NCBI GenBank assembly: GCA_003282155.1
Contig: QBZY01000013.1
Coordinates: forward strand, 1 to 44,624
DNA from: Pelagibacteraceae bacterium AG-337-I02
Lineage (GTDB): Bacteria > Pseudomonadota > Alphaproteobacteria > HIMB59 > GCA-002718135
Direction: 5' to 3'
Length of the DNA stretch: 44,624 bases
Shown: one piece after another, positions 1 through 32,715 of the stretch
Position numbering within the stretch: position 1 is the stretch's first letter
Layout: each line of letters starts with the position of its first letter
Notes under the pieces: generated by a model
Told to the model about the DNA's origin: nothing
What the model saw: the letters and a program-made list of their open reading frames with translations, nothing else
Database searches by the model: none
Made by a program: the position numbers and the translations under genes

Positions 1-972
1 CATAACTTGAACGTGCTCTGAAGCTATTTCATTTGCTTTAGATAACATCTCTTCATAGGTGTCACATAAAATAATTTCTCCATAATCTCTCCAGCTAATA
101 CTTGCCGTTTCTTTAGTAGGTAAAATTTCTAAAATTCTATCAATTTCTTTAAATGTTTCTTCTGCAAGTTTTCTTGAGTTTGTTATCATGACAGCTGGCG
201 AATTATATCCATGCTCTGCTTGTCCTAATAGGTCAGTTGCACATATTTCACCATCAACTGTTTCATCTGCAATAACCATTGTTTCAGTTGGACCAGCAAA
301 TAAATCAATACCAACTTTGCCATACAATTGTCTTTTCGCTTCAGCAACAAAAGCATTTCCAGGTCCAACAAGCATATCAACAGATTTAATATTTTCTGTA
401 CCAATAGCCATTGCGCCTACTCCTTGCATTCCTCCTAAAACATAAATTTCATGAGCACCCCCCATTTTCATTGCTGTAACAACTGCTGGATTTGGTTTAC
501 CTTTAAAAGGTGGAGTAGTGGCTACAATCCTTGGCACCCCAGCAACAGAGGCAGTAACAACAGACATATGTGCAGAAGCTACCATTGGAAATTTACCAGC
601 TGGAACATAGCAACCGACTGCTTGTACAGGTATATTCTTATGACCAAGAATAACACCTGGGTGCGTTTCTACTTCTAATTCATTTAAAGTTTTTAGTTGT
701 GCTTCAGCAAATGACCGTATTTGTTTTTGAGCAAATTTAATATCTTCTTTATCATTATCAGAGACTGCACTCATTAATTGATTAATTTGATCTTCACTTA
801 GTCTAAAACTATCTGGTGAATAGTTATCAAACTTTTTTGATAACTCTCTAATATGTTTATCACCTTCTATCTCAATTTTACTTAATGTTTCTTCAACAAT
901 TTTTTTAACTTTATCATTATCTTCAATTCTTTGTTTTTCTTCTAAACCTCTTTTTAAATATTCAATTGCCAT
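1..972 (-). CDS. Histidinol-dehydrogenase-family dehydrogenase (HpsN-like), C-terminus cut by window edge
   Basis: The reading frame opens with ATG at 972 and stays open for 324 codons to base 1, so the C-terminus is missing. HisD-family marks are clear: GQAEHG at about 250-255 supplies the zinc ligands equivalent to Gln259/His262 of E. coli HisD, and SEH at 318-320 supplies the catalytic Glu-His pair (326/327). The last zinc ligands would lie beyond the edge. The family oxidises an alcohol to an acid in two NAD-dependent steps. There is no other his gene nearby; it sits 2 bases after a SnoaL-like gene, so a catabolic paralogue is likelier than histidine biosynthesis. HpsN (2,3-dihydroxypropanesulfonate to sulfolactate) is the best-known such paralogue and fits the ComDE genes in the window, but the substrate is inferred. 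Confidence 0.85.
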   Translation of the reverse strand, partial: MAIEYLKRGLEEKQRIEDNDKVKKIVEETLSKIEIEGDKHIRELSKKFDNYSPDSFRLSEDQINQLMSAVSDNDKEDIKFAQKQIRSFAEAQLKTLNELEVETHPGVILGHKNIPVQAVGCYVPAGKFPMVASAHMSVVTASVAGVPRIVATTPPFKGKPNPAVVTAMKMGGAHEIYVLGGMQGVGAMAIGTENIKSVDMLVGPGNAFVAEAKRQLYGKVGIDLFAGPTETMVIADETVDGEICATDLLGQAEHGYNSPAVMITNSRKLAEETFKEIDRILEILPTKETASISWRDYGEIILCDTYEEMLSKANEIASEHVQVM

Positions 973-974
973 AA

Positions 975-2006
975 TTATTTTTTATGAATTAATTCAAATA
1001 TATCAACACCTATTTGTTTTAAAATATAGGCTATATCAATTGGTACCCAATTTTCACGAATTAAACCTTCGTGATGTAAATAAAAATCCATCACTCTCAT
1101 TTCTACCATAACATCATTTGGCTCAAAACCTAACCAATGATTAGAGCCGTACTTACTCTTAATACTATGCCATCCTCCAGTCATTGAATAATTACCATCT
1201 CCAATTTCAACATAATGACCGACTGTATTATAGTCTCTTTCTTTAAAAGTTAATCTAAATGGTAGTTGATGATGATCAACAAAACCTTTCAGACCTCTCG
1301 CTGTCCCAACTCCTGAAGGACCAAACCACATCATTTTAGGATGCCAATATTTTTTTTGTTCATGATCATTAATCAAATTATATCTTATACTCTCTGTAGA
1401 AAAAGTTGGTTCCATTTCAGGTTTAGTTCCTAAACTTATTTGCATTGTAAGTGATTGATGCAAAGACTTTATAGACAATTTTTTGTCTAAATTTATATTA
1501 TTTTCACCATCACCAGTTATTGGTGCAGGCCACATGCCCTCTGCTCCAAGTGATTTGTGTAATGGCCAATAACCAGCTTGACGAATAAAATCCACAGTAT
1601 CAATTAAAAAATATGATTTAATAATTTTATTATTTGTTATTTGATGACAATGACATGTTCCAGTAAGGTGACTTATATAGGAAACAAAAATTTTATCTTG
1701 ATAAGCGCCACCAATTACAATATTATTTCTAATTTCAAGATCATTAAATGCATTTTTAAGAGGTTTCCAAAGTTTATTCTTAATTTCACCAATACCCTTA
1801 ATTTCATTAATTGGATAAAAAGCATTTAGCTCTCCATCTTTGTGATAAAAGTTTTCTAATTCTTTCTCTAAATTTTCATTTGAAGACTCTACAATTTTTT
1901 TTAATAAATCTTTAAAATATATTTTATTTTTTATATTTTGTTGAAGATCAAGATCAATATGGAAAATAGTTTCTCTTTTTTTAACATCCTTTTCAAATGA
2001 TTTCAT
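975..2006 (-). CDS. Tandem SnoaL-like (NTF2-fold) protein, family A
   Basis: A 343-residue cytoplasmic protein with no signal peptide. It reads as two SnoaL-like alpha+beta domains, roughly residues 35-150 and 210-340, joined by a linker with a WPAPITGDG segment. The second domain starts with HPKMMWFGPSGVG (222-234) and ends with REN-W-x-PID, features shared with the products at 5208-6212 and 13685-14758; these three form one paralogue family. SnoaL-type folds act as cyclases, hydrolases, isomerases or binding proteins, so the reaction cannot be named. It is transcribed just ahead of the HpsN-like dehydrogenase (2-base gap), and its promoter faces that of the cupin gene across a shared palindrome. 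The fold is fairly sure; the function is unknown. Confidence 0.8.
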   Translation of the reverse strand: MKSFEKDVKKRETIFHIDLDLQQNIKNKIYFKDLLKKIVESSNENLEKELENFYHKDGELNAFYPINEIKGIGEIKNKLWKPLKNAFNDLEIRNNIVIGGAYQDKIFVSYISHLTGTCHCHQITNNKIIKSYFLIDTVDFIRQAGYWPLHKSLGAEGMWPAPITGDGENNINLDKKLSIKSLHQSLTMQISLGTKPEMEPTFSTESIRYNLINDHEQKKYWHPKMMWFGPSGVGTARGLKGFVDHHQLPFRLTFKERDYNTVGHYVEIGDGNYSMTGGWHSIKSKYGSNHWLGFEPNDVMVEMRVMDFYLHHEGLIRENWVPIDIAYILKQIGVDIFELIHKK

Positions 2007-2041
2007 ACCTACTGATTAATACCTTTAAATAATAATTGATT

Positions 2042-2059
2042 TATTCAATATATTGAATA
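2042..2059. promoter_or_regulatory. Palindromic operator TATTCA-N6-TGAATA (site 1)
   Basis: A perfect 18-base palindrome with N6 = ATATAT lies between the divergent starts at 2006 and 2095. Two matching half-sites follow immediately at 2061-2079 (TATTCA, 7 bases, TGAATA). The same arms and spacing recur at 6249-6266 and 8896-8913. It is probably the binding site of the LacI-type regulator encoded at 7877-8875. Confidence 0.6.
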
Positions 2060-2094
2060 TTATTCAACAAAAATGAATAAAATAATCTAATAAT

Positions 2095-3066
2095 ATGTCA
2101 ATTAATATTACATCAAGACTAGCTAAATTCGATGACTTAGTTCCAAGTAAGATTCCCTTTGTTGAGGGTAAGTTAAAAGGTCATCAAGATAGAAAAAATT
2201 ACTCTGTTATTGGACCAGGGGTAAGTGAAGATGCAAAACAAAATGTAAAAATTGCAGAAGCTCATGGATTTAACATTGGCGCTGTAAGTGCTGCTCCAAT
2301 GAATGGTTCTGGTTTGCACAGCCACACAACAGCCGAAGTATTTATTATTCACTCAGGAGCCTGGCGCTTCTACTGGGGCGTGGATGGTACAGAAGGAGAA
2401 GTAATATTATATAAAGGCGATGTCGCATCTTTTCCAACAAATATGTTTAGAGGATTTCAAAATGTGAGTGATGAGGAAGCGTTAATGTTTGTTGTTTTAG
2501 GTGAAAATGACCCAGGTGTGATTACATGGACCCCAAAATTATTAAAAGAGGCTAAAAAATCTGGAATGGTTCTGCTTGATGATAATTCTTTAATTGATAT
2601 TGAAAAAAATAAAATTGTAGATGAAAATAAAATCATTCAACCATTACATGATAAAGAACTTGAAACATTTGATCATTACACATCTTCAGAAATTGAAAAA
2701 TTCGTCATACGTTTAAGTGATATGGATAAGTACTTAGTTGATGATGAACATTTTAATTCGAATAAAATCATTAATTATCTTGATCATTTTAATATTCATA
2801 ATAAGTTATTTGATCCTTATATTCCGCATAAAACCGGATTTAGTCTTTCTCTGCTGAATGGAAAAAATGCTCATGTACATGAATATACACTTGAGAAATC
2901 AGAAGTATTACATTGCTTGTCTGGCAGTTGGGAAATTAATTGTGGTGGACAAAAAGTTGTCATCAATGCAAGAGATACCTTTTCAGTACCAAAAGATGCA
3001 ATGAGATCTATAAAACAAATAAGCGAAATTGATGGAAGCTTATTTATAATAAGACAAACTAACTAA
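2095..3066 (+). CDS. Double-cupin protein
   Basis: A 323-residue protein with two cupin barrels. The first (about 55-140) has HSHTTAE with His75, His77 and Glu81; the second (about 245-315) has HVHEY with His260, His262 and a following Glu. In both barrels the place of the third metal His in cupin motif 2 appears to be Arg (Arg119 and Arg304), so the metal site would be incomplete or altered. The bicupin layout recalls gentisate-dioxygenase-like or sugar-binding cupins; I cannot assign a reaction. It starts a plus-strand run with the SnoaL-like gene (11-base gap) and the MetE-like gene. No good Shine-Dalgarno is visible before the ATG. Confidence 0.8.
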   Translation: MSINITSRLAKFDDLVPSKIPFVEGKLKGHQDRKNYSVIGPGVSEDAKQNVKIAEAHGFNIGAVSAAPMNGSGLHSHTTAEVFIIHSGAWRFYWGVDGTEGEVILYKGDVASFPTNMFRGFQNVSDEEALMFVVLGENDPGVITWTPKLLKEAKKSGMVLLDDNSLIDIEKNKIVDENKIIQPLHDKELETFDHYTSSEIEKFVIRLSDMDKYLVDDEHFNSNKIINYLDHFNIHNKLFDPYIPHKTGFSLSLLNGKNAHVHEYTLEKSEVLHCLSGSWEINCGGQKVVINARDTFSVPKDAMRSIKQISEIDGSLFIIRQTN

Positions 3067-3077
3067 ATATTTTATAT

Positions 3078-4070
3078 ATGAAGGGTTTTGATGATAAGTT
3101 CAAAGATTTACCTGATTATATTTTAAAAATTACATATCAAATTTGGGAAAATAATGATGTTGAAGCTATAAGAGATTATTATGCTGATACCCCTAATGTT
3201 AGCCTACCTACCCCAACTAGATCTCCTTCAGGTGTAATTTATGGTGCTGAACCAGTAATCGAAAGCACTTATGCTAGTAAAATACTTTTTCCAGACAGAA
3301 CTCTTTTAGGAGAAGATGTAATTTGGACTGGTAATGATGAAGAAGGATATTTTTCATCTCATCGAATTTTATCAACTTCTACCCACTCTGTTGACGGTAT
3401 GTACGGTGAAGCAACTGGAAAAAAATTATATTACAGAACTATTGCCGATTGTGCATGTATGAATAATCAGGTTTATGATGAATGGCTTGTTAGAGACCAA
3501 GGAGCCATTGTTAGACAAATTGGAATAGATCCTAAAGAGTTTGCAAATAATTTAATCAAAAATGAAGGTGGCCCAGACAAAGCGAGTAAACCTTTTGATG
3601 AAAACACTCCTCTTCAATCAATTTACACATCACCCATATTACCTTCTGGTAATTGTGGTGAAACTTATGCAAAAATTCTAACATCAATTATGAATATTAA
3701 TTTAGAGAAAACTATTAATGATAATTATGATAGGGCAGTACAACAATTTCAACCTGGTGGTAATACTCACTATGGAAAAGATGAGGTTATTAAATTTTGG
3801 AAACAACTAAGAAATGCTTTTCCAGACTCTTTATTCTCCATTGATCATATGGCTTTTACCGAAGAAATTGATCAACCTAAAAAAGCTTCAGTTAGATGGT
3901 CTTTAGTTGGAAAACATGAAGGTAATGGTATGTTTGGTAAAGCATCTAATGCAAATATATATGTAATGGGTATTAACCATGTTGAATTTGGACCAAGAGG
4001 TATTAAAAATGAATGGGTTTTGTATGATGAAACTATGATTTGGAAACAAATTTTATTAAAAACTGGTTAG
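3078..4070 (+). CDS. Tandem SnoaL-like protein, family B
   Basis: A 330-residue protein with two NTF2/SnoaL-like halves, roughly 8-150 and 190-325. Marks are ITYQIWE near residue 18, AFPDSLFSIDH-type strands in the second half and a KNEW-x-LYDE end. It is a clear paralogue of the product at 6320-7459: both have MKGF followed by IxYQIWE, and both end with an NEW-like strand plus a WKQIL/LMQIL helix. Family B differs from family A, which has WxGPxGxG. The gene lies between the cupin and MetE-like genes with gaps of about 10 bases, so it is probably cotranscribed. Function unknown. Confidence 0.8.
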   Translation: MKGFDDKFKDLPDYILKITYQIWENNDVEAIRDYYADTPNVSLPTPTRSPSGVIYGAEPVIESTYASKILFPDRTLLGEDVIWTGNDEEGYFSSHRILSTSTHSVDGMYGEATGKKLYYRTIADCACMNNQVYDEWLVRDQGAIVRQIGIDPKEFANNLIKNEGGPDKASKPFDENTPLQSIYTSPILPSGNCGETYAKILTSIMNINLEKTINDNYDRAVQQFQPGGNTHYGKDEVIKFWKQLRNAFPDSLFSIDHMAFTEEIDQPKKASVRWSLVGKHEGNGMFGKASNANIYVMGINHVEFGPRGIKNEWVLYDETMIWKQILLKTG

Positions 4071-4079
4071 TATAACTAT

Positions 4080-5207
4080 ATGTCATCAATTCAAACAACG
4101 CACGTAGGAAGCCTTCCTCGATCAAAAGAATTATCTGAATTTTTATTTGCAAAAGATAGAGGTGAAAATTTTGATCAAAGTAATTTTAATAATATTTTAA
4201 AAGACAATGTTGAAAAAGTTGTCAAACAACAAATTGATGTTGGAATTGACTTTGTCAATGATGGTGAAATGAGTAAAATTAGTTATGCTACTTATATTAA
4301 AGATAGAATTGATGGATTTTCGGGCGAAAGTGAGAGAAGAGCACCCGCGGACCTTGATGACTTTCCTGAATATAAAGAAAAGATAGATAAGAGTGGAGGT
4401 ACTCCCACCTATACGAGGCCCTGCTGTACAAATGAACTTAAGCTAAAAGACGAGAACGCACTAATTAACGACTTAAATAACTTCAAAAATTCACTCGATA
4501 AAAATAATCATCACAAAGCTTTTATGAATGCTGCATCTCCAGGTGTAATAAATGTCTTTATGCCCAACAAATTCTATAATTCTGAAGAAGAATATTTAGA
4601 TAAGCTATCTAATATAATGGCTAAAGAATACGAAACTATTACAAAATCAGAAATCCAAGTTCAATTAGATTGCCCTGATCTTGCACTTGCTAGGCACATG
4701 AATTTTAAAGATTTATCTGAAGATGAATTTATTAAACGAGCAGAAATACAAATTGAATGTTTGAATGCAGCTTTGGTAAATGTTGATGTTGAAAAAACGA
4801 GAATGCATATATGCTGGGGTAACTATGAAGGACCTCACACTCATGACATTGCATTAGAGAGAATTTTACCTATAATTTTAAAATCTAAAATAAAATTTTT
4901 CTTAATTGAATCTTCCAATCCTAGACACTCACATGAATGGAAAGTTTTTCAAGATATCAAATTACCAAAAGATAAAATTTTAGTTCCAGGTGTTATTGAT
5001 TCTACCTCTAATTTTGTAGAACATCCTGAAGTAGTGGCTGATAGATTAATTCAATATTCAACAGTGATTCCTAAAGATCAATTAATGGCTGGAACAGATT
5101 GTGGTTTTAGTTCATTTGCTGGCTTTGGAAAAATTGATGAAAAAATTTGTTATGAAAAACTTCATGCATTAGTTGAGGGTACTAAACTTGCTTCAAAAGT
5201 CATCTAA
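4080..5207 (+). CDS. MetE-core (cobalamin-independent methionine synthase C-terminal type) zinc enzyme
   Basis: A 375-residue TIM-barrel protein with HVGSLPR (8-14), DGEMSK (61-66) and the full MetE-type zinc set: His243 and Cys245 in HICWG, Glu277 in IESSNP, and Cys341 in TDCGF. It lacks the MetE N-terminal half; MetE is about 750 residues, and this is the length of the stand-alone catalytic module. Relatives transfer alkyl groups to or from thiols: methionine synthase core enzymes, epoxyalkane:coenzyme M transferase. The context of SnoaL and cupin genes, not methionine genes, argues for catabolic thiol chemistry. It ends at 5207, directly abutting the stop of the convergent SnoaL gene. The acceptor and donor are unknown. 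Confidence 0.82.
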   Translation: MSSIQTTHVGSLPRSKELSEFLFAKDRGENFDQSNFNNILKDNVEKVVKQQIDVGIDFVNDGEMSKISYATYIKDRIDGFSGESERRAPADLDDFPEYKEKIDKSGGTPTYTRPCCTNELKLKDENALINDLNNFKNSLDKNNHHKAFMNAASPGVINVFMPNKFYNSEEEYLDKLSNIMAKEYETITKSEIQVQLDCPDLALARHMNFKDLSEDEFIKRAEIQIECLNAALVNVDVEKTRMHICWGNYEGPHTHDIALERILPIILKSKIKFFLIESSNPRHSHEWKVFQDIKLPKDKILVPGVIDSTSNFVEHPEVVADRLIQYSTVIPKDQLMAGTDCGFSSFAGFGKIDEKICYEKLHALVEGTKLASKVI

Positions 5208-6212
5208 TTACTGATTTAAAAATTTTGCTCTTTCTAAAAGATCAACTCCTAGTATTTTTAAAAAATGTAAATGATCTATAAAAATCCAATTTTCAGCTAG
5301 TTTATCACCATCTCTTCGATATAAATCTACAACTCTCATTTCAGACTCAATTTCACTAGCATTTGTTAAGCCTAAGTATTCTCCCTTAGGTTTCATTATT
5401 AAATTTGGCCAACCAAACCAACCACCTAAATCATCTTCAGCACTACTTAGTATATGTCCATTAAATCTTACAAATTCTAAGCCATCTTGAAACGGTTTAG
5501 TATGTCCTTTTTGATAACCATCGATTGTATATGATGCTCCAATACCTCCTGGCCCCCACCAAATCATATCATTATGCCAATCAAGCTCTAATTCCTCTTT
5601 ATAAGATTGCATTTTAGAACCTTTGACAAGGCGGTCTCGCATTCTATGGATTAGATCTAATGTTTTTTGACTTTCATTTTGATTAGAAGTGGTAAATTTT
5701 AAACCTTTATGATTCATTGGTCCTGGTGTAACACAAACGAGACCTGAAGATGCAGGAATTACAGAAAGACCTAGTTGTTGCATAAAATTCATTACATCTA
5801 AAAAAATAGCTCCTTCAGTAATTTTATTATTTTCAACTTTATAAAATTCTGCAAATCGTAACAAAATAGATTTATAATTAGGTTTAAGGCCTAAAAAAGA
5901 TTTATTAAATACACCCATGAAATGGCCCATACTTGAGATCCATTTACTTTCATTCTTATCATTCGAGTTTATACCTGCATAAAATATATCTAATCGACGT
6001 TGTATAGGTGAAAATGAATCCTTAATTGGTTTCCAAAGATTTTTTGCAATAAGATCTGTACTTCCTATTTCGTTGAAAGGATGGGTACATTTCATATTAA
6101 AATCTTCTGATACATATTTAGAGATAATTTCTGTTAAAGACTCAATGTCGCAACTATCTATTTCACTAAAATAATCTAATACTAATTTTTTTTCTGCTTG
6201 AAGATCAGTCAT
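5208..6212 (-). CDS. Tandem SnoaL-like protein, family A
   Basis: A 334-residue two-domain SnoaL-like protein, the paralogue of the products at 975-2006 and 13685-14758. Domain 1 covers about 10-150 (KNLWKPIKDSF near 57-67, MGHFMG near 95-100). A linker with CVTPGPMNHKG (160-170) follows, then domain 2 from about 210 with HNDMIWWGPGGIG (213-225) and ENWIFIDH near the end. No signal peptide. The gene faces away from 6320-7459 across a 107-base region holding two palindromes. It meets the MetE-like gene tail to tail with no spacer. Function unknown, presumably the same pathway as its paralogues. Confidence 0.8.
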   Translation of the reverse strand: MTDLQAEKKLVLDYFSEIDSCDIESLTEIISKYVSEDFNMKCTHPFNEIGSTDLIAKNLWKPIKDSFSPIQRRLDIFYAGINSNDKNESKWISSMGHFMGVFNKSFLGLKPNYKSILLRFAEFYKVENNKITEGAIFLDVMNFMQQLGLSVIPASSGLVCVTPGPMNHKGLKFTTSNQNESQKTLDLIHRMRDRLVKGSKMQSYKEELELDWHNDMIWWGPGGIGASYTIDGYQKGHTKPFQDGLEFVRFNGHILSSAEDDLGGWFGWPNLIMKPKGEYLGLTNASEIESEMRVVDLYRRDGDKLAENWIFIDHLHFLKILGVDLLERAKFLNQ

Positions 6213-6248
6213 TAAATTTGAATTATATTAATAAAGTAAAAAAGACAA

Positions 6249-6266
6249 TATTCATTTTTTTGAATA
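6249..6266. promoter_or_regulatory. Palindromic operator TATTCA-N6-TGAATA (site 2)
   Basis: TATTCA, six T, TGAATA: the same arms and spacing as at 2042 and 8896. It is centred in the divergent promoter region between starts 6212 and 6320. Confidence 0.55.
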
Positions 6267-6268
6267 AA

Positions 6269-6286
6269 ATTTCATTGCTTTGAAAT
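6269..6286. promoter_or_regulatory. Second palindrome ATTTCA-N6-TGAAAT in the same promoter region
   Basis: ATTTCA, TTGCTT, TGAAAT lies 20 bases (about two helical turns) from the site at 6249 and has the same 6-base spacer. It may be a degenerate second copy of the same operator. Confidence 0.4.
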
Positions 6287-6319
6287 ATTTTTAAATGTAT
6301 CTCAAGTTAAATACAAAAT

Positions 6320-7459
6320 ATGAAAATAAAAAAAATTAAAGATAAAAGACCACAAGCTCTCCAAGATTATCACATGCCCACGAGTTATGATATTTCATTA
6401 AAAGCATATGGAGGTGGAGGAACTGCAAAATCTTTAAATCCAGAACCTAAAAAACTTAAACATCAATCAATGAAGGGATTTGAAGAACATTATAAAAATA
6501 TCATAGATTATATAGTAAGAATTACTTATCAAATTTGGGAAGAAAAAAATATTGGGTATATTTATGATACATACAGTAAAGATTGCAGAGTTTGGGATGA
6601 ATTTGGTTTGCAATCTGGATCAGAAAAAATAGTAGCTGATACAGTACACACTAATAATGCTTTTCCAGACATAAGACTTTTTGCTGATGAAGTTATTTGG
6701 GCAGGAGATGAAAAAGCAAGTTTTCATACATCACACAGAACAATTATTACTGGAACAAATACTGGTTTTAGTAAATTCACCAAACCAACAGGAAAAAAAG
6801 TTAGGCTATTTTGTATTGCAAATTGTGTAGCAAAAAATAATGAAATTTATTACGAAAATGTTGTGTATGATACTGCAGGTTTAATCAAACAGCTTGGATT
6901 AGACCTAAATCAAGTTGCTAAACAACTTGTAGATGAGGGAATAACAGGGCCATTTGCACCTAATTTTAAAAACTCTAAGCCAAAAAGAAATATTACTAAA
7001 TTAAAACCAATCAGTTTTGAAATCCCAGATAAAATTAATAATGTACGACAATTTGTTCACGCGGTTTATGACACAATTTGGAACAGAAGAAATTTTTCTG
7101 CAATAAATAAAGCATACTCCAGTACTGTCGAATTTGAAGGTTCGACAGGACGTAAATTTAAAGGAGTTTTGCAATTGAGAAAGTATATAATATCAATTTT
7201 GGCTTCATTTCCTGACCTTGTAATAAGCATCGAAGATTTATACTGGATGGGAAACACCAAAGACGGTTATTTAGTTTCAGTGCGTTGGGCTGCAGTAGGA
7301 ACACATAAAGGTAATGGCTCATATGGCCAACCAACTAACAGAGAAGTTTTTCTTTGGGGAATCACTCAATGGGAAATTAAAAACAACAAAATAATGAAAG
7401 AATGGACTGGCTTTAATGAGCTTGCAATTTTAATGCAAATTTTAGGAGATAAAAAATGA
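6320..7459 (+). CDS. Tandem SnoaL-like protein, family B, with N-terminal extension
   Basis: A 379-residue paralogue of the product at 3078-4070. It has ITYQIWEE near residue 68, two NTF2-like halves (about 55-205 and 240-375) and a KEWTGFNE end. The first 50 residues have no match in the paralogue, and a second in-frame ATG at 6470 begins MKGFEEHY, aligning with the MKGFDDKF start of 3078-4070. The true start could therefore be 6470 (329 residues). I keep 6320 because the frame is open and the extension looks like normal protein, with a Gly-rich turn. It overlaps the next gene by ATGA. Function unknown. Confidence 0.75.
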   Translation: MKIKKIKDKRPQALQDYHMPTSYDISLKAYGGGGTAKSLNPEPKKLKHQSMKGFEEHYKNIIDYIVRITYQIWEEKNIGYIYDTYSKDCRVWDEFGLQSGSEKIVADTVHTNNAFPDIRLFADEVIWAGDEKASFHTSHRTIITGTNTGFSKFTKPTGKKVRLFCIANCVAKNNEIYYENVVYDTAGLIKQLGLDLNQVAKQLVDEGITGPFAPNFKNSKPKRNITKLKPISFEIPDKINNVRQFVHAVYDTIWNRRNFSAINKAYSSTVEFEGSTGRKFKGVLQLRKYIISILASFPDLVISIEDLYWMGNTKDGYLVSVRWAAVGTHKGNGSYGQPTNREVFLWGITQWEIKNNKIMKEWTGFNELAILMQILGDKK

Positions 7460-7875
7460 ATTTAGATGAAAGTAGAAAACTATTAGAGAATATGTATGAT
7501 GCACTTAATGCACAGGATCTAGAAGCTCAACATAAATACTGGCATGATAATATGGTTTGGCACGGCCCTCCAGGATTTGGTGATATTCATGGTATTGAAA
7601 ATTTTAAATATAAAGTCCTAAAACCTTTTTACGAGGCATTTCCTGATTACCATGTAAAAAATGACATTGTTGTTGCAGAAGGTGAATGGATAAGTGCAAC
7701 TGGATTTTTAACAGGAACACATAGTGGTATATATCTTGGTGTTGAACCAACAGGTAAGTCTATAAAAATGCAATTCTCAGATTTTTGGACAATTAAAGAT
7801 GGAAAGTTTTTAGACAATTACGTTATGGTAGATAATCATGGTGTTTTTGAGCAAATGGGATTAAAATTTAAATAA
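7456..7875 (+). CDS. Single-domain SnoaL-like protein
   Basis: A 139-residue protein of usual SnoaL length. HDNMVWHGPPGFG (30-42) matches the WxGPxGxG motif in the second domain of family A, followed by PFYEAFPDYHV, the GTHSG strand and DNYVMVDNHGVFEQMG. It looks like the single-domain relative of the family A C-terminal half. The start overlaps the previous stop (ATGA), so it is translationally coupled to the family B gene; the two products might work as partners. It meets the LacI-type gene tail to tail with one base between. Function unknown. Confidence 0.8.
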   Translation: MNLDESRKLLENMYDALNAQDLEAQHKYWHDNMVWHGPPGFGDIHGIENFKYKVLKPFYEAFPDYHVKNDIVVAEGEWISATGFLTGTHSGIYLGVEPTGKSIKMQFSDFWTIKDGKFLDNYVMVDNHGVFEQMGLKFK

Positions 7876-7876
7876 A

Positions 7877-8875
7877 TTACTTTGTCGTTTTTCTTTTAAT
7901 AAGCCTTCCTTGAACAATATGGTTTATTGGTTCAAAATCTGGATCTCTAATAAATTCATTAATTAACTGAGTTGCTAGATTTGACATTTGTCTAATTGGC
8001 TGCCGCACTGTTGTGAGATTATATGATTCCCATGATGACATTGATATATCATCGTAACCAATAACTTCTAATTGGGAGGAGATTTTTAAGAGCGTATTTT
8101 TTTTAATATAATCTAAGCATCCAAATGCCATTGTATCATCAGCACAAAATATTGCACTTAAATTTTTATTAAAGATTTTTTCTGTTGCTTGATAACCACC
8201 TTCATATGTAAAAAATCCTCTCTCAACAGTTAATTTTATTTTTTTATTTTTTTTAAGAATATTTTTAAAACCTTTACATCGTTCATCACTAACAAATGAA
8301 CCTTTAGGACCTTCAATAAGACCAATATATTTATGATTTTTGTTAATAAAATATTCTGCAACTATTTGTCCTCCATTTCGATGATCACATGCTACAGAAC
8401 TTATGGTTGGTATATTCCAACTTCTATTGTAAGCAATAAATTGTATTCTTTTTTGATTGCAATCTTCAACAAATTTATCTGTAGGTTTTGTTGCAGATAT
8501 TATTGCAATAAGTTTTTCTTTTAAATAAGGCTCAATTAATTTTTCATCTAATTCTTCTCCATCATCAGTTGTTATTAATAAAATTCTAAAACCTCCATTT
8601 CTTAGTGCTTCATGTAATTCAATCAAAACTTCTGGGTAATATCTACTCGTAACATAGGGTAAAATAACAGCTACTAACCCACTATCATCGTTTGACGCTG
8701 AACCAGAAGATATGTTAGGCGCTTTATATTTTAATTTTCTTGCTGCTTCCAAAACTCTTAACTTTGTTCTACTAGAAATACTGGCACCTTTTGTAAAACA
8801 TCTCGAAACCGCCGATTGCGACACCCCTGCTAACTTTGCTACGTCCTGAGATGTCGCAGTCTTTTTAAAATTCAT
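7877..8875 (-). CDS. LacI-family transcriptional regulator
   Basis: 332 residues, standard LacI/GalR length. The N-terminal helix-turn-helix is TSQDVAKLAGVSQSAVSR (about 8-25), with a hinge LEAARKLKYKAPN (about 42-54). A periplasmic-binding-protein-like effector domain follows (about 67-330) with typical VAVILPY, SVACDHRNGG, AIFCADDTMAFG and VIGYDDI stretches. It is divergent from the sugar-binding-protein gene at 9005, with a TATTCA-N6-TGAATA palindrome just upstream of its own start. It therefore probably controls itself, the ABC transporter and, through identical palindromes, the SnoaL/cupin genes. The effector is presumably the transported sugar or a catabolite. Confidence 0.93.
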   Translation of the reverse strand: MNFKKTATSQDVAKLAGVSQSAVSRCFTKGASISSRTKLRVLEAARKLKYKAPNISSGSASNDDSGLVAVILPYVTSRYYPEVLIELHEALRNGGFRILLITTDDGEELDEKLIEPYLKEKLIAIISATKPTDKFVEDCNQKRIQFIAYNRSWNIPTISSVACDHRNGGQIVAEYFINKNHKYIGLIEGPKGSFVSDERCKGFKNILKKNKKIKLTVERGFFTYEGGYQATEKIFNKNLSAIFCADDTMAFGCLDYIKKNTLLKISSQLEVIGYDDISMSSWESYNLTTVRQPIRQMSNLATQLINEFIRDPDFEPINHIVQGRLIKRKTTK

Positions 8876-8895
8876 GAATTATCCCCTCATTTCAA

Positions 8896-8913
8896 TATTC
8901 AAAACCTTGAATA
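8896..8913. promoter_or_regulatory. Palindromic operator TATTCA-N6-TGAATA (site 3)
   Basis: TATTCA, AAACCT, TGAATA; the palindrome extends one more pair on each side (8895-8914). It lies 20 bases upstream of the LacI-type start (8875) and about 90 bases before the binding-protein start (9005), where a shared operator would be expected. Confidence 0.65.
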
Positions 8914-8969
8914 TCAATTCATATTATTGCATTATTTTCTAATACTAATATAAAGGATTTATACTTAAA

Positions 8970-8982
8970 TGTGAATTTCACA
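8970..8982. promoter_or_regulatory. Small palindrome TGTGAA-T-TTCACA before the binding-protein gene
   Basis: A 13-base palindrome lies 22 bases upstream of the ATG at 9005, probably near the transcription start. Its spacing (TGTGA-N3-TCACA) is wrong for CRP, which needs N6. It may be a second regulator site or chance. The ribosome-binding AAGGGGA follows at about 8993-8999. Confidence 0.3.
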
Positions 8983-9004
8983 CTTTATTAATAAGGGGAA
9001 ATAT

Positions 9005-10240
9005 ATGAAAAAACTATTAATAGCTCTATTGTTTACATTCGTGAGCACAGGTGTGCACGCCGGCGGGCACTCACCTTGTGGAGTAACAGATGGATCAATA
9101 AAGATTCTAGCTAACGAATTTACAACATACAGAATTTTCATGGATGAGGTAAAAAGTTGTGCGGGACCTAGTGCAGATTTTTCTGTAACTCACTCCGTTG
9201 ACCATAATAAATTACAAGTTGCGGCTCTATCAGCTAACCCTGCAGAGTTTTCTGCAAAACTTGTAACAAATGGTTCAATTACAACTTTAATGAATGATAA
9301 TTTAATTCGTCCACTTGACGATTTAGTTGCTAAATATGGAAGTGCATTACAAGACAATCAAAAAATCGTGATTGATGGTAAGATCTACGCAATAGCTTTC
9401 ATGGCTAATGCTCAACATCTTTGGTACAGAGAAAGCATTCTTAATGACTTAGGTATCGCAGTTCCTTCAACATATGAAGAAGTAATTGCAGCTGCAGAAA
9501 AAATTAAGGCATCTGGCAAAATGGCTAACCCATATGCTGGGGCTTTCAAATCTGGATGGAATTTAGGTCAAGAGTTCGTAAACATGTATCTTGGTCACGG
9601 AGGTGACTTCTTTAAAGCTGGAACAGCTGAAGTCAGTGTTAATAATGCTAATGGAGTAGCTGCTCTGAACATGCTTAAAAGATTAACAGAAGTGAGTAAT
9701 CCTGATTTCTTAACTCAAGATACTAATGCAGTTAAAGAAGAATGGGAGTCTGGTAATGTAGCATTAATGCATATCTGGAACTCAGGAGCAGCATCTTTAT
9801 TAGATGACGAAGGTGATCAGATGATTAAAGCTGATACTAGATTAGCTCCATCTCCATCAGTTGGTGGTGGAATGAAACCTGCAACAACTCTATGGTGGGA
9901 TGGTTTTGGAATAGCTACAAATACTTCTGATGAAAATGCAGAGGCATCTTTTAGAGCTCTTTTAGGTGCAGCAACTTCAACAGAAATGGCAAATGCTAAT
10001 CCAAATGCAACTATTTGGTTGATTGATGGCTATTCGCCTGGAGACACAGCAGGACCTGTTGTTGACGCTGCTAACAGAGGTGCAACACCTTACCCAAGCT
10101 TACCATACATGAGTCTATTACATGGTGCTTTGAGTACAGAACTTGTAGAATTCCTTCAAGGAAATGAGTCTGCTGAAAAGGCATTAGCTGATGTAGAAGC
10201 TGCTTATGTAGCAAAAGCTACTGAGCAAGGTTTTCTATAA
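9005..10240 (+). CDS. Sugar ABC transporter, periplasmic substrate-binding protein (family 1)
   Basis: 411 residues. A Lys-Lys start, a hydrophobic stretch and VHA make a signal peptide of about 19 residues. The mature protein has the MalE-like family-1 plan: early IKILANEF strand, YAIAFMANAQHLWYRESIL (ligand-cleft region), AYAGAFKSGWNLG-like segment and a TTLWWDGFGIATNT C-lobe strand. It captures a sugar or related polar solute in the periplasm. A strong AAGGGG ribosome site precedes the ATG, and a hairpin terminator lies between this gene and its permeases, consistent with high expression. Divergent from the LacI-type regulator, which likely represses it. The substrate is not readable from sequence. 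Confidence 0.92.
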   Translation: MKKLLIALLFTFVSTGVHAGGHSPCGVTDGSIKILANEFTTYRIFMDEVKSCAGPSADFSVTHSVDHNKLQVAALSANPAEFSAKLVTNGSITTLMNDNLIRPLDDLVAKYGSALQDNQKIVIDGKIYAIAFMANAQHLWYRESILNDLGIAVPSTYEEVIAAAEKIKASGKMANPYAGAFKSGWNLGQEFVNMYLGHGGDFFKAGTAEVSVNNANGVAALNMLKRLTEVSNPDFLTQDTNAVKEEWESGNVALMHIWNSGAASLLDDEGDQMIKADTRLAPSPSVGGGMKPATTLWWDGFGIATNTSDENAEASFRALLGAATSTEMANANPNATIWLIDGYSPGDTAGPVVDAANRGATPYPSLPYMSLLHGALSTELVEFLQGNESAEKALADVEAAYVAKATEQGFL

Positions 10241-10260
10241 ACCACATAATTATTTATGTT

Positions 10261-10294
10261 AAAGTGGAACATTATTATGTTCCACTTTTTTTTT
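10261..10294 (+). terminator. Intra-operon hairpin terminator/attenuator after the binding-protein gene
   Basis: Arms AAAGTGGAACAT (10261-10272) and ATGTTCCACTTT (10277-10288) form a perfect 12-pair stem with a TATT loop, followed by T to 10294. It lies between the binding-protein stop and the permease ATG at 10307, so it should limit readthrough or protect the upstream mRNA 3' end. Confidence 0.85.
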
Positions 10295-10306
10295 AAAAAG
10301 AAATAG

Positions 10307-11335
10307 ATGCCTCACAAAACATTCTTTTGGTTTTTCTTTCCAAGCGGATTGGCAATGCTGATGTTTATTGGCCTTCCAATTATCTCTAGTTTTTTTCAAT
10401 CTCTTCATATTGAGCCTGAACAAATTTTAATGGAAGTAGAAAAATGTGATCCGTTTGGATGTAAAACTGAAACAAAAGTAGATATTGAAGCTACAAATAA
10501 ATTACAAGAGGAACAGCCTCTCGGAAGGTTTAACGGTTTGGGAACTTATGGAGATAGAAACCATTTAGCTTTTGATGAAATTAAAGAGGCTTGGACTAAT
10601 TCTTCATCAATAGCTGAGTTCACAGATATTTTACTTAATCTTCCATTTTATAAAGCATTACTTTTTACACTAACATTTTGTTTTGCAGTTACACCACCAG
10701 TAGTAGTCTTAGGCTTCATAGTAGCTTTAAGTGTAAATACGATTACGAAAAGCTTAAAAGGTCCAACCATTTTTGGTGTTATTTTACCGATGATTGTAAC
10801 ACCATTGATTGGATCTCTCGTTTTATTTTGGATGATAGATGCAAAGGGAATATTGGGTTCATTTATTCAATTCTTATTTGATGATCCAAATTTATCACTA
10901 AAGTCTTCAAGTCAATTGACATGGATAACTCTGATTATTTATGGTATCTGGCATAATACACCTTTTGCTTTTGTTGTTTTTTATGCTGCATTGCAGACTG
11001 TACCTCAAGATCCAATTGAAGCTGCAATTATCGATGGAGCTTCAAGATATGAAAGAGTAAGACACATTGTTATCCCACATCTTTATCCAGTTGCAACGTT
11101 TATAATATTGATATGTCTTATGGATAATTTCAGAGTTCTTGAACCTATAATTGGTTTTGCTGCTGAAGGAGTTGCTCAATCACTTTCTTGGATGATTTAC
11201 AACGACTTAAGAAGTGAAAACAAAATGTTATTCGGGTCTGCAGGAGCAACATCTATGTTAACTATTATTGGTGTAGCAATCTTATTAACACCAGTACTTA
11301 TAAGAACCTGGAGAGAATTTAGAACAGAGAGATAA
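10307..11335 (+). CDS. Sugar ABC transporter permease (MalF/UgpA type)
   Basis: 342 residues with about six membrane spans. The first is at 8-28, then there is a large periplasmic stretch (about 30-110) with a CDPFGC pair of cysteines, and the remaining spans follow from about 118. The ATPase-coupling EAA loop is EAAIIDGASRYERVRHIVIP (about 242-261). It pairs with the next permease, 1 base away. The start is 12 bases past the upstream T-run with no strong Shine-Dalgarno, so expression should be lower than that of the binding protein. No ATPase gene lies in this operon. Confidence 0.9.
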   Translation: MPHKTFFWFFFPSGLAMLMFIGLPIISSFFQSLHIEPEQILMEVEKCDPFGCKTETKVDIEATNKLQEEQPLGRFNGLGTYGDRNHLAFDEIKEAWTNSSSIAEFTDILLNLPFYKALLFTLTFCFAVTPPVVVLGFIVALSVNTITKSLKGPTIFGVILPMIVTPLIGSLVLFWMIDAKGILGSFIQFLFDDPNLSLKSSSQLTWITLIIYGIWHNTPFAFVVFYAALQTVPQDPIEAAIIDGASRYERVRHIVIPHLYPVATFIILICLMDNFRVLEPIIGFAAEGVAQSLSWMIYNDLRSENKMLFGSAGATSMLTIIGVAILLTPVLIRTWREFRTER

Positions 11336-11336
11336 T

Positions 11337-12218
11337 ATGGAATCAAAAATTAACAGATACTCAAAACAACTAATTTTAATAAATAGTTTTTTTATTCTCG
11401 CTTGGTTAGTTGTTTCTGTTTTTCCTTTTATATGGACCTTTTGGGGATCATTTAAAGTTAAAGCTGACTTTTTCTCAAGAGCTGATTGGATGTTTGCTGT
11501 ATCAGGGGTTAATACTTTGATTGAAACAGGAGATACCTCTACAGTTAAGGCATATGTGGAGTCTTGGACTGAAGGTGAATTTTGGAAAGCAACAATGAAT
11601 ACAATTATTATAACTGTTTCTGTTGTCACAATCTCTTTATTTTTAGGAACATTAGGTGCTTATGCATTGTCTAGATCAACATATAAATATACTTTTTGGA
11701 TTTTAATTGCTGCTTTGATTTTTAGAGCGATGCCTCACATCACACTTGTTTCAGGTTATCTATTCCCTTTCTTTCAATTGAATGTTTGGGGCATACTGCC
11801 GACTACCATAATAGTTTTAGTAGCAATAAATCAACCTTTCACATTATGGCTTCTTTATTCTTTCTTTAAAACAGTTCCTAAAGAATTAGATGAAAGTGCA
11901 CTAATTGATGGCTGCTCTTATTTTCAAGCATTTCGCTTTGTTATAATGCCTGTAATGTGGCCGGGAGTTGTTACAGCAGGTTTATTTAGTATGATGTTAG
12001 CCTATAATGATTTTACAGTTACTTCACTTCTTTTAAATCAGCAAAATTATACAATGGTTCCTAAAATTAATGCCTATTTAGGTACAATTGAACATAGTGG
12101 AAATTATATGTGGGCAGTATCCAGTGTTGTTTCTGCAACTGCACCTTTATTTATGATTATAATGTTTTTTCAACGACAACTAATAAGTGGTTTAACTGCT
12201 GGGGCAGTGAAAGGTTGA
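11337..12218 (+). CDS. Sugar ABC transporter permease (MalG/UgpE type)
   Basis: 293 residues, usual MalG length. The first span is near 13-33, then a periplasmic segment and further spans; the EAA-like loop reads ESALIDGCSYFQAFRFVIMP (about 189-208). It forms the permease heterodimer with the product just upstream. After it the operon continues with HAD-like, SDR and SnoaL-like genes rather than the usual ATPase, so the ATPase must come from elsewhere; the MalK-type protein at 42169-43251 is one candidate. Possible substrates are sugars or polyols. Confidence 0.9.
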   Translation: MESKINRYSKQLILINSFFILAWLVVSVFPFIWTFWGSFKVKADFFSRADWMFAVSGVNTLIETGDTSTVKAYVESWTEGEFWKATMNTIIITVSVVTISLFLGTLGAYALSRSTYKYTFWILIAALIFRAMPHITLVSGYLFPFFQLNVWGILPTTIIVLVAINQPFTLWLLYSFFKTVPKELDESALIDGCSYFQAFRFVIMPVMWPGVVTAGLFSMMLAYNDFTVTSLLLNQQNYTMVPKINAYLGTIEHSGNYMWAVSSVVSATAPLFMIIMFFQRQLISGLTAGAVKG

Positions 12219-12242
12219 TATAAAAATTAAATTTCTAATAAT

Positions 12243-12902
12243 ATGAAATATAAGGCTTTAATATTTGGATCAATTGGAACACTAATAGAGTCATCAGATA
12301 TACAACGTAACTCTTTCAATGAAGCTTTTAAAGAAGCTGGTCTAGATTGGTACTGGGATGAGCAAGATTATAAAATTTTATTAAAAAGATCTGGTGGTAC
12401 AAAAAGGGTAGAAGATTTTGCAGAAAAAAATAATGTTAATGTTAATGCATCACAATTAAGAAATAGAAAGACTGAAATTTTTAGTTCTTTTATAATTAAG
12501 AACAAACAAAAATTAAGAAAAAGTGTAAATGAAATAATTAATTACTCAAAAAAAAATAATATTAAACTATCTTTATCAACGTCAACAACAATTAATAATG
12601 TTGAGGCAGTATTCAAAAGTTTATCCAATGAAATTTCAAAAGAGGATTTTCATTTTATTGGAAATAGATCATTAGTTAAAAATGAAAAACCTAATCCTGA
12701 AATATACAAACTAACATTGGAAAAATTAAATTTAGAACCTGATAATTGTTTAGCTATTGAGGATACTGAAGAAAGTAGCAAGTCTGCGGTAAGTGCTGGA
12801 ATAAAGTGTATTGGTTTCCCTGGCGATTATCATTCAGATGATAGTTTTGAAATGTGTATTAAAAAAGTAAAAATATTAGATCAATCATTATTTTCACTGT
12901 AA
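12243..12902 (+). CDS. HAD-superfamily (CbbY/PGMB-like) protein lacking the nucleophile motif
   Basis: 219 residues, normal for a subclass-IA HAD phosphatase with a helical cap (about 17-95). Motif II (LSTST, 111-115), motif III Lys149 (NEKPNPEIY) and motif IV Glu173/Asp174 (AIEDTEES) are present. Motif I, normally FDxDGT, reads FGSIGT (8-13): both aspartates, including the one that becomes phosphorylated, are replaced by Gly9 and Ile11. The reading frame around it is clean, so this is not a sequencing slip. It cannot use the usual HAD mechanism and may bind a phosphosugar or have another activity. It sits 24 bases after the permease, inside the operon. Confidence 0.85.
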   Translation: MKYKALIFGSIGTLIESSDIQRNSFNEAFKEAGLDWYWDEQDYKILLKRSGGTKRVEDFAEKNNVNVNASQLRNRKTEIFSSFIIKNKQKLRKSVNEIINYSKKNNIKLSLSTSTTINNVEAVFKSLSNEISKEDFHFIGNRSLVKNEKPNPEIYKLTLEKLNLEPDNCLAIEDTEESSKSAVSAGIKCIGFPGDYHSDDSFEMCIKKVKILDQSLFSL

Positions 12903-12917
12903 AGATTAAAAAGGTTC

Positions 12918-13685
12918 ATGTTTTTAAAAGATATAAACGTAAAAAATAAAACAGCGTTAATAACTGGGGCTGGTAAAGGCATTGGTAAAGCCTGCTCTAT
13001 AGCACTAGCAGAAGCTGGTGCTCATATAATTATAATAAGCCGTACAGAAAAAGATCTTATGGAAGTTCAAAGCATCATCACAAGACTAAAAAGAAGGTGT
13101 AGCTATTTTGTTTGCGATGTTACTAACCTTGATGAGATAAAAAAAATTTTTTCTAAAATTTCCAGATTAGATATTTTAGTTAATAATGCTGGTACAAATA
13201 GACCTGAATTTTTTACAAAAATAAAAAGAAAAGATATGAGTGAAGTGGTAGATTTAAATATCAAAGCCTCTTTTGATATCGCCCAGCTTTCTACTAAAAT
13301 AATGCTTAAATCCAAAAAAAGAAAAAAAATGGGTGGATCAATTATTAACTTATCTTCACAATTAGGTAAAGTAGGTGCTCCATTGAGAAGTGTTTATAAT
13401 ATGACTAAATTTGGTATTGAGGGTCTGACCAAAGGCATGGCCATAGACTTAGCAAAACATAATATACGTGTTAACTCAATTTGCCCTACATTTGTAGAAA
13501 CACCTATGGTAAAAAATTTTTTTAAAAATAAAGATTTTAAAAAATCTGTTATTAAAAATATTCCTTTAGGTAAGGTTGCAACTGAAAGTGATATCGCAAC
13601 AGCAGTTGTGTATTTAGCTTCTGATGCTTCTTCAATGATGACAGGATCTTCTTTAGTTATTGATGGAGGGTGGACAGCAAAATAA
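12918..13685 (+). CDS. SDR-family NAD(P)-dependent oxidoreductase
   Basis: 255 residues, classical short-chain dehydrogenase. TGAGKGIG (16-23) binds the nucleotide, NNAG is at 89-92, and the catalytic set is Ser147, Tyr160 and Lys164 (YNMTK). It ends VIDGGWTAK, the usual C-terminal motif. It interconverts an alcohol and a ketone, here probably of a sugar-like or hydroxy-acid substrate imported by the upstream transporter. The stop overlaps the next start (TAATG). An AAGG-like ribosome site precedes the ATG. Confidence 0.92.
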   Translation: MFLKDINVKNKTALITGAGKGIGKACSIALAEAGAHIIIISRTEKDLMEVQSIITRLKRRCSYFVCDVTNLDEIKKIFSKISRLDILVNNAGTNRPEFFTKIKRKDMSEVVDLNIKASFDIAQLSTKIMLKSKKRKKMGGSIINLSSQLGKVGAPLRSVYNMTKFGIEGLTKGMAIDLAKHNIRVNSICPTFVETPMVKNFFKNKDFKKSVIKNIPLGKVATESDIATAVVYLASDASSMMTGSSLVIDGGWTAK

Positions 13686-14758
13686 TGACATCTGAAGAAT
13701 TAAAAAAATATTTTATTGACTATCAAATTTCAACTCAAACTTTTGATACAGACATCATTGAAAAATCATTAAATAAATATTTTTCAAATGATACTTTAAT
13801 ACATTTTTGTCATCCGTTTGGAACTTTTAAAGGTTTAGATTATTTATTAACCAAATGTTTAATTCCTCTATTTGATAGTATTCCAGATCTTGAAAGAAGA
13901 GATATGATTGTCATGGCTGGAACAACTCCAGAAGGCAGAAATTGGATTGGAACAATGGGTAATTATATGGGAACATTTCTAAAGCCATATTTAAATATTC
14001 CACCGACTGGAAATTTAATACATATGCGTTATCATGAATTTTTTCAGGTAGAAGATAATAAAATTGTCCAATTACAAGCAATTTGGGATTTACCTGAATT
14101 GATGATGCAAGCAAATGCATGGCCGATGGCACCTCAGTTAGGTGCTTTTTTGTGTACACCATCGCCGATGACATCTGATGGTCTTGCCATAAAAGGAGAT
14201 GGTAAAAAGAATTTTGACCACGTCATTAATATGCTTAATGATTTATCTATTCATCCAACAGATCCTAATCCCAGAGTAATGCAATTAGAAAAATATTGGC
14301 ACCCTAATCTAAATTGGTACGGGCCAGCAGGAATTGGGACAGGAAGGGGGATAGCTGGATTTAGACATTGGCACCAAATACCCTTTTTGAGAGCAATGCC
14401 AGATCGCAAAGGTGGATCTTCTAATGAAAAATTAGCAATAGAAGGTATGGAAGATTTAAAAACACATTGGTTACACGAAGGTAATTATGTTTGTGAAACA
14501 GGTTGGCCTAATATGAGGTTAACTATAACTAATGATGGTTGGATGGGTATAGCACCATCAAATCAGCAATTAGAAATGCGCAGTTTAGATTTTTGGAGAC
14601 TTGAAAATGGTTTGATCAGAGAAAACTGGGTCTTAATTGATTTACTGGATATTTATAGGCAAATTGGTATCGATGTCTTTGATCGAATTAAAGAATTTAA
14701 TAAAGCTCGCCAAACAGGAGATATAAAAATTTCTAATGGATTGGATGTTTTAAAATAA
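13685..14758 (+). CDS. Tandem SnoaL-like protein, family A
   Basis: 357 residues from the ATG that shares one base with the SDR stop; an in-frame GTG at 13670 would add five residues but is less likely. Two domains: about 15-150 (MGNYMGTF near 91-98, YHEFFQVEDNKI near 116-127) and about 200-340 (HPNLNWYGPAGIG, 206-218; ENWVLID near the end), linked by CTPSPMTSDGL (157-167). It is the closest plus-strand relative of the products at 975-2006 and 5208-6212. Its place at the end of the ABC/HAD/SDR operon ties the SnoaL family to the transported substrate. Reaction unknown. Confidence 0.82.
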   Translation: MTSEELKKYFIDYQISTQTFDTDIIEKSLNKYFSNDTLIHFCHPFGTFKGLDYLLTKCLIPLFDSIPDLERRDMIVMAGTTPEGRNWIGTMGNYMGTFLKPYLNIPPTGNLIHMRYHEFFQVEDNKIVQLQAIWDLPELMMQANAWPMAPQLGAFLCTPSPMTSDGLAIKGDGKKNFDHVINMLNDLSIHPTDPNPRVMQLEKYWHPNLNWYGPAGIGTGRGIAGFRHWHQIPFLRAMPDRKGGSSNEKLAIEGMEDLKTHWLHEGNYVCETGWPNMRLTITNDGWMGIAPSNQQLEMRSLDFWRLENGLIRENWVLIDLLDIYRQIGIDVFDRIKEFNKARQTGDIKISNGLDVLK

Positions 14759-16539: not shown

Positions 16540-16581
16540 ATTTGGTATTCTCTCTATACCACTGCTACAATTTTTCCTATG

Positions 16582-16607
16582 ATATTTCTTTATTGTGTAA
16601 GAAATAT
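16582..16607. promoter_or_regulatory. Inverted repeat ATATTTCTT-N8-AAGAAATAT in divergent promoter
   Basis: Perfect 9-base arms separated by TATTGTGT lie between the divergent starts 16539 and 16657. This is a likely regulator site for both the Pta-like and the aminotransferase genes. It differs from the TATTCA-type palindrome, so a different regulator is expected, none of which is encoded next to it. Confidence 0.45.
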
Positions 16608-16656
16608 TCTTTGATTTATTGATAATTTCATATACTCAATCTCTATTAAGGAAAAA

Positions 16657-32217: not shown

Positions 32218-32715
32218 ATGAAAATTAGTAAAAAAATAATAGCAAATTTAAAAGAAGGTGGCGTAGATTTTTATTTAAGTGTTCCGTGTAAATTACTAGC
32301 TAACATGATTGATATTCTAGAAAAAGATAAAGATGTATATTATTCTTCAGTCCCACGTGAGGAAGAAGGCATGGGAATTTGTGCTGGTGCTTATTTAGGA
32401 AATAAATTCCCTTGTATAATGATGCAGAATACTGGAATTGGAAATTCAGTTAATGCAATAGTTTCATTATTACAATTATATCAGATGCCAGTTGTTTTTC
32501 TTGTTAGTTACAGAGGCACTCCAGGAGAACCCGTGGGAGCACAAGGTGGAATGGCTAAAATAACTGAAGATATTTTGCAAACATTAAGGATACCAATGCT
32601 GCATTGCTCATCAGAAAATGATTTAGAGAAAATTTCAACATTTAGTAAGCATGCTAAAGTAATTGAATCACCTGTTGCTATTTTATGTGATTTCAATCTA
32701 ATGAAGGAAGATTAA
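32218..32715 (+). CDS. comD: Sulfopyruvate decarboxylase alpha subunit (ComD-like; ThDP PYR domain)
   Basis: 165 residues, just the pyrimidine-binding half of a thiamine-diphosphate enzyme. The ThDP-activating glutamate lies in VPREEEGMGICAGAYLG (46-62), and SYRGTPGEPVGAQGGM (near 99-114) is typical of ComD. With the beta subunit it decarboxylates 3-sulfopyruvate to sulfoacetaldehyde. The split 165+189 layout matches ComD/ComE; phosphonopyruvate decarboxylase is normally one chain of about 380. It overlaps the beta gene (TAATG) and lies 46 bases after galM. Confidence 0.88.
   Translation: MKISKKIIANLKEGGVDFYLSVPCKLLANMIDILEKDKDVYYSSVPREEEGMGICAGAYLGNKFPCIMMQNTGIGNSVNAIVSLLQLYQMPVVFLVSYRGTPGEPVGAQGGMAKITEDILQTLRIPMLHCSSENDLEKISTFSKHAKVIESPVAILCDFNLMKED

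Follow-up and report, generated by a model that had tools for sequence, protein, structure and literature searches.

Two-domain SnoaL-like proteins in a putative catabolic regulon shared by a marine alphaproteobacterium and its distant relatives

Proteins of the NTF2/SnoaL fold whose function is known carry out acid-base chemistry on ketones and enols, the polyketide cyclases SnoaL, AknH, IdmH, AclR and SnoaL2 among them. The present analysis concerns contig QBZY01000013.1 of Pelagibacteraceae bacterium AG-337-I02, the whole of which (positions 1-44,624) is called the window, and in it a cluster at approximately 1-14758 that combines six SnoaL-like genes (A1, A2, A3, B1, B2 and S1; Table 1) with a sugar-type importer and enzymes of other families. 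The likeness to the cyclases lies in the fold of each half of the proteins, with weak sequence similarity; unlike in the cyclases, two domains are joined per chain in five of the genes, the context is catabolic, and the best PDB sequence match of A3 among solved members reaches only E 0.002.

Several other described systems resemble parts of the cluster. The 1-972 protein, truncated at the window edge, matches sulfopropanediol 3-dehydrogenase (HpsN; E 5e-84) and histidinol dehydrogenases (from E 9e-60) in the PDB, whereas its gene adjoins SnoaL genes and not an identified sulfonate pathway. The MetE-core protein belongs to the family of the YxjG-type, methionine synthase-like enzymes, and its residues H243, C245, E277 and C341, which we take to be zinc ligands and homocysteine contacts, are invariant in 9 of 9 aligned sequences; it differs in its placement in a degradation operon and in its scores, all of which lie far under the cut-offs (at best 109.9 bits in NCBIfam, against an equivalog cut-off of 406). 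With the non-phosphorylative pathways of the L-fucose/galactarate type, relatives of the cluster share a short-chain dehydrogenase/reductase (SDR), a lactonase-like hydrolase and an HpcH aldolase, whereas SnoaL, cupin and MetE genes are additional here, no classical dehydratase is present and scores remain under the equivalog cut-offs. The C2 cluster of Sinorhizobium meliloti has two SnoaL-like proteins, a methyltransferase and an Lrp/AsnC regulator (PMC12337268); compared by description, the accessible part of that report makes no mention of cupin, histidinol, LacI or amidase. A search of the literature, which reached few subscription papers, found no account of the gene cluster, in agreement with a preliminary description of this DNA as a catabolic locus that no nameable pathway explains, and the accessible text of PMC10308909 had no match to SnoaL or LacI. 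Each enzyme comes from a known superfamily; it is their combination that appears undescribed, as does the recurrence of two-domain SnoaL proteins within a catabolic regulon.

A recurring and, judged by its gene content, catabolic set was found around relatives of A3. It comprises a LacI-type regulator, an importer or symporter, a HisD-type dehydrogenase, an SDR, a cupin, a lactonase-like hydrolase, a pyruvate-type aldolase, often a MetE-core protein, and one to six SnoaL proteins, and is seen in Pantoea, Deinococcus and Priestia as well as in Alphaproteobacteria of sea and soil. Gene content was taken from tblastn in 80 named loci, the top-ranking ones of at least 544 relatives; in the 39 that have both 10-kb flanks, LacI and family B were each present in 36, SDR in 34, MetE in 33 (counted at >=40% identity, which leaves out a second, distant MetE of the relatives at 21-25% identity), cupin in 31, HisD in 26, hydrolase in 24 and A2 in 23. 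Across the named loci, no other SnoaL gene of the cluster is as widely conserved as A3. A recurrent order in Rhodobacterales (A2 < > ATPase, binding protein, permeases, HisD, A3, SDR, LacI, B, cupin, MetE, alpha/beta hydrolase, RraA) is also seen in the annotated loci of Ruegeria conchae and Octadecabacter. In Henriciella and sphingomonads, the transporter is a sodium symporter, and an amidohydrolase or HpcH aldolase is present in addition. Some parts are interchangeable among loci, namely the transporter (ABC, SSF, MFS or TRAP), the aldolase (RraA or HpcH) and the hydrolase (PcaD-like or fuconolactonase-like). The set also occurs on named plasmids of Deinococcus (three strains), Priestia filamentosa, Pantoea dispersa, Novosphingobium, Roseibium and Sinorhizobium medicae; an amidase or CN-hydrolase is found in 10 of 18 plasmid loci, which sometimes hold two HisD genes. 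The loci of Priestia, Novosphingobium EMRT-2 and Sinorhizobium medicae retain the enzymes of the set but have one family-B gene as their only SnoaL gene. The SnoaL array is therefore not obligatory, and the pathway need not run through successive SnoaL-only steps, which qualifies the earlier view that several such steps were implied.

The joint occurrence of families A and B in other genomes, a check proposed in the preliminary description, was examined in 398 Pseudomonadota genomes, the window's own included. Family B was present in 24 and family A in 23 of them; without the own genome, both occurred together in 18 of 397 against 1.27 expected (Fisher's exact test, 3.7e-23, a value that ignores relatedness, as do all Fisher values here, and that is too small because 15 of the 18 genomes come from one family), five having B only and four A only. 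The surroundings of B in 25 loci (including L128 and L129, which are unlike the cluster and were kept in the denominators) were compared with 20 control windows at hand-picked positions in 14 of 23 genomes. Strong differences were seen for HisD and cupin (20 vs 0 each), LacI (22 vs 3), SDR (20 vs 3), importer or other transporter (19 vs 1), family A (18 vs 0), hydrolase and aldolase (16 vs 0 each) and MetE (14 vs 0), and no enrichment for amidase/CN-hydrolase (2 vs 0, p 0.3), OtnK (0 vs 1) or LigM-like genes (0 vs 0). In the genome family to which the window belongs, family A was present in 93 of 110 sampled, mostly incomplete genomes; it therefore looks like a standing trait of this streamlined marine group rather than an oddity.

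All six SnoaL open reading frames (ORFs) were borne out as genuine in the ORF map of the window, and together they encode 11 domains, in five two-domain fusions and the lone-domain S1, as first proposed. The curated Pfam SnoaL cut-off was passed by five of the six; A1 lies below it (22.4 vs 28.4) and is assigned by the family-A profile. Seven of the genome's eight PF07366 matches fall in this cluster. Profiles and a tree of about 45 two-domain proteins (support values not shown) likewise bear out two paralogue families, A (A1, A2 and A3) and B (B1 and B2), which split apart. The NTF2 fold expected in every half was recovered by structure prediction in both halves of family B (predicted local distance difference test, pLDDT, 91.5), whereas the family-A model is reliable for the N half only. 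In A1, the N-terminal domain is without 19 residues that are present in 17 other aligned family-A rows. A homologue search with A3 returned 5123 relatives at E<=0.001. Because A1, A2, A3, B1 and B2 each group with relatives from other genera, the tree indicates that the array was assembled from five old lineages and not by local duplication; the repeated duplication suggested earlier is thereby not supported for this locus, and recent tandem duplication was rejected as the origin of the array.

The cluster is laid out as three divergent pairs (A1-HpsN/cupin-B1-MetE; A2/B2-S1; LacI/importer-HAD-SDR-A3), and every divergent intergenic region contains a single copy of the pattern TATTCA-N6-TGAATA. 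Since this one operator is shared by all three promoters, co-regulation of the cluster with the sugar-type importer, another element of the preliminary description, is supported at the level of promoter sequence, and the LacI-family protein is presumed to be the reader of the operator. The pattern was written from the three promoters themselves, so that the chance expectation of 0.02 matches per window is a post hoc figure and the genome-wide count is the fairer test: in 1.45 Mb there are four exact matches, three of them in the cluster and the fourth on contig 30, at 892-909. Among 151 fetched loci the operator was found in 23, of which 4 are pieces of the window itself and 19 belong to its own lineage; no locus from outside that lineage had it.

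Table 1. Genes and operator sites of the cluster, with positions in the window
Feature	Position	Strand	Evidence and remarks
HpsN/HisD-type alcohol dehydrogenase	1..972	-	PDB match; truncated at window edge, 324 aa present
A1, two-domain SnoaL, family A; N half 19 residues shorter	975..2006	-	profile, tree, alignment
Operator TATTCAATATATTGAATA, between A1 and cupin gene	2042..2059		pattern search; kept in relatives
Bicupin	2095..3066	+	profile match, alignment
B1, two-domain SnoaL, family B	3078..4070	+	profile, tree, structure model
MetE-core protein	4080..5207	+	profile match, alignment
A2, two-domain SnoaL, family A	5208..6212	-	profile, tree
Operator TATTCATTTTTTTGAATA, between A2 and B2	6249..6266		pattern search; kept in relatives
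B2, two-domain SnoaL, family B, with N-terminal extension	6320..7459	+	profile, tree
S1, lone SnoaL domain, like C half of family A	7456..7875	+	matches A profile positions 181-319
LacI-family regulator	7877..8875	-	LacI-family models; adjoins operator
Operator TATTCAAAACCTTGAATA, between LacI and importer	8896..8913		pattern search; kept in relatives
Sugar-type ABC substrate-binding protein	9005..10240	+	trehalose/maltose-binding protein, E 4e-11
ABC permease, UgpA-like	10307..11335	+	profile match
ABC permease, MalG-like	11337..12218	+	profile match
Pseudo-HAD protein, FGSIGT replaces usual motif	12243..12902	+	profile match, homologue alignment
SDR oxidoreductase	12918..13685	+	profile match
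A3, two-domain SnoaL, family A	13670..14758	+	profile, homologue search, model

On balance, we slightly favour reading the region as a LacI-controlled catabolic regulon, a streamlined version of a conserved pathway for a small polyhydroxylated molecule, and the gene content suggests that this substrate is often O-methylated. The ABC importer would take up such a sugar- or cyclitol-like molecule, the HisD-type enzyme would convert a CH2OH group next to a hydroxyl into a carboxylate, and the SDR would oxidise another hydroxyl. By analogy with known members of the fold, the role of the SnoaL proteins would be acid-base chemistry: the two-domain forms could catalyse hydrolysis, hydration, dehydration or tautomerisation at activated ring carbons, with paralogues serving different substrate variants. 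As an optional step, the MetE-core enzyme may transfer methyl to a thiol acceptor, which is probably homocysteine. The cupin, whose first domain has H75, H77, E81 and R119 conserved in 9 of 9 aligned sequences, would oxidise or isomerise the ring, a lactonase-like hydrolase would open the product, and pyruvate would be released by an aldolase of the RraA or HpcH type. The pseudo-HAD protein probably has a conserved non-phosphatase role, given that FGSIGT is conserved in the window and in 30 of 30 homologues and that the nucleophilic Asp of motif I is missing. No ATPase gene lies beside the importer, the nearest (42169-43251) going with another importer.

Several observations weigh against this reading. 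Related genomes dominate the counts in the phylum sample. The window cluster has neither a hydrolase nor an aldolase gene, so that both steps would need genes from outside it; elsewhere in the genome, apart from three HpcH proteins of generic type, the candidates are all distant and weak (27% for the hydrolase; 31% over 98 residues for an RraA-like protein), which makes the end of the route uncertain in this organism. MetE is missing in several loci (e.g., L059, L073 and L104), which makes methyl transfer a variable step, and family A can be found where the other genes of the set are lacking (e.g., L048 and L067). In Vibrio pelagius, four SnoaL genes and an importer stand without HisD, SDR, cupin or MetE; the locus of the archaeon Halobellus limi combines five SnoaL genes with a MetE-core gene but gave no HisD, SDR or cupin match. 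These two exceptions speak against a single fixed pathway. Genes near the Halobellus array encode an HpcH protein, an extradiol-type dioxygenase and a LigM/DesA-like O-demethylase (L092 2602-3954; 470 bits, cut-off 800). In Vibrio pelagius, sarcosine oxidase subunits and purU adjoin the SnoaL/importer array (L090 468-5710).

As to the substrate of such a regulon, the likeliest single class that can be named is that of the mycosporines and gadusol, a tentative choice to which an unusual sugar is the main rival. The sugar, possibly O-methylated or aminated, would be degraded by a non-phosphorylative oxidative pathway comprising the SDR, a lactonase, HisD acting on a terminal CH2OH, a SnoaL dehydratase and a 2-keto-3-deoxy-acid aldolase. 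We consider this a serious possibility, though less likely than not: the LacI and sugar-type ABC genes fit it, the nearest models of the SDR are glucose dehydrogenase-like, and relatives carry a fuconolactonase-like hydrolase and GarL/HpaI-like aldolases. Moreover, in one locus, that of Ensifer NER9, B, HpcH, hydrolase and cupin are accompanied by a 3-oxo-tetronate kinase (456 bits, cut-off 350) and by a 3-oxo-tetronate decarboxylase that scores just below its cut-off (240.8 bits vs 250). On the other hand, in the annotated loci no IlvD- or enolase-type sugar-acid dehydratase adjoins the core genes (an IlvD lies at the far edge of L098), and the cupin and MetE-core proteins have no place in the textbook scheme. 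It is a guess by analogy that a SnoaL protein, with scytalone dehydratase-like activity, could stand in for the dehydratase. Under the alternative of mycosporine, mycosporine-like amino acid or gadusol degradation, which we regard as doubtful, SnoaL proteins would hydrolyse the amino-substituted enone, MetE would remove the 2-methoxy group, HisD would oxidise the C5 hydroxymethyl, the cupin would open the reductone ring, and the aldolase would split a branched 4-hydroxy-2-oxo-acid into pyruvate and oxaloacetate or a 3-oxo-acid. Such a route would also account for methyl transfer and HisD, and is consistent with the MetE-core gene in many loci, the amidase or CN-hydrolase of the plasmid loci and the O-demethylase beside the Halobellus array (one locus); on paper, retro-aldol cleavage of ring-opened gadusol gives pyruvate and 3-oxo-tetronate, the substrate for which the OtnK/OtnC of Ensifer NER9 are named. 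According to the accessible part of a review, bacteria hydrolyse such compounds to mycosporine-glycine and 4-deoxygadusol (PMC3083659). Against this stand the lack of enrichment of amidase/CN-hydrolase and OtnK in the phylum sample, the extradiol-type dioxygenase with which the Halobellus demethylase may form a separate aromatic operon, and the many hosts that are soil or root bacteria; the gene evidence is weak and comes from single loci, the structures and the route are presumed, and nothing ties the cluster to these compounds. That the regulon is an undescribed bacterial pathway for consuming sunscreen compounds made by fungi, algae and cyanobacteria, in which two-domain SnoaL proteins remove the amino substituents of the cyclohexenone ring and the ring ends as pyruvate together with oxaloacetate or a 3-oxo-acid, is offered as speculation.

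Two further readings were rejected. A dihydroxypropanesulfonate pathway, suggested by the PDB match of the 1-972 protein to sulfopropanediol 3-dehydrogenase and by genes for sulfopyruvate decarboxylase subunits at 32218-33284 (alpha 160.5 bits, cut-off 147.95; beta 220.7, just below 221.5), is very unlikely as the main function: these genes lie about 17 kb off and outside the operator set, the conserved neighbours in the named loci include no sulfonate gene, and other clusters have the HisD relative annotated as hisD. Least credible is a polyketide-type biosynthetic cluster, which the name of SnoaL and its solved relatives, which are polyketide enzymes, would bring to mind; no polyketide synthase-like gene is among the window ORFs searched, S1 reaches 30 bits against the methyl ester cyclase cut-off of 200, and the importer, LacI, dehydrogenases and aldolases indicate breakdown.

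For the favoured reading of a catabolic regulon, the occurrence of one gene set in bacteria from leaves, roots, soil and seawater implies that the compound is natural and widespread, and its breakdown is not described in the literature searched. Its identity would give a function to thousands of entries named 'ester cyclase' (the family-A relatives counted above) and extend the chemistry known of the NTF2 fold; should it prove to be a sunscreen compound, a gap in carbon and nitrogen cycling would be filled.

Other genes of the window were also noted. A block at 15640-19112 encodes a phosphotransacylase, the omega-aminotransferase AptA (583 bits, cut-off 500) and an alanine dehydrogenase, and adjoins A3 in many relatives. 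A second, distinct MetE-core gene (19109-20158) stands beside a PehA-like sulfatase/phosphatase (20166-21701). At 36208-37581, a distant relative of the sulfoquinovose isomerase SftI (280 bits, cut-off 700) adjoins Gfo/Idh, PfkB-type and hydroxyacid dehydrogenase genes.

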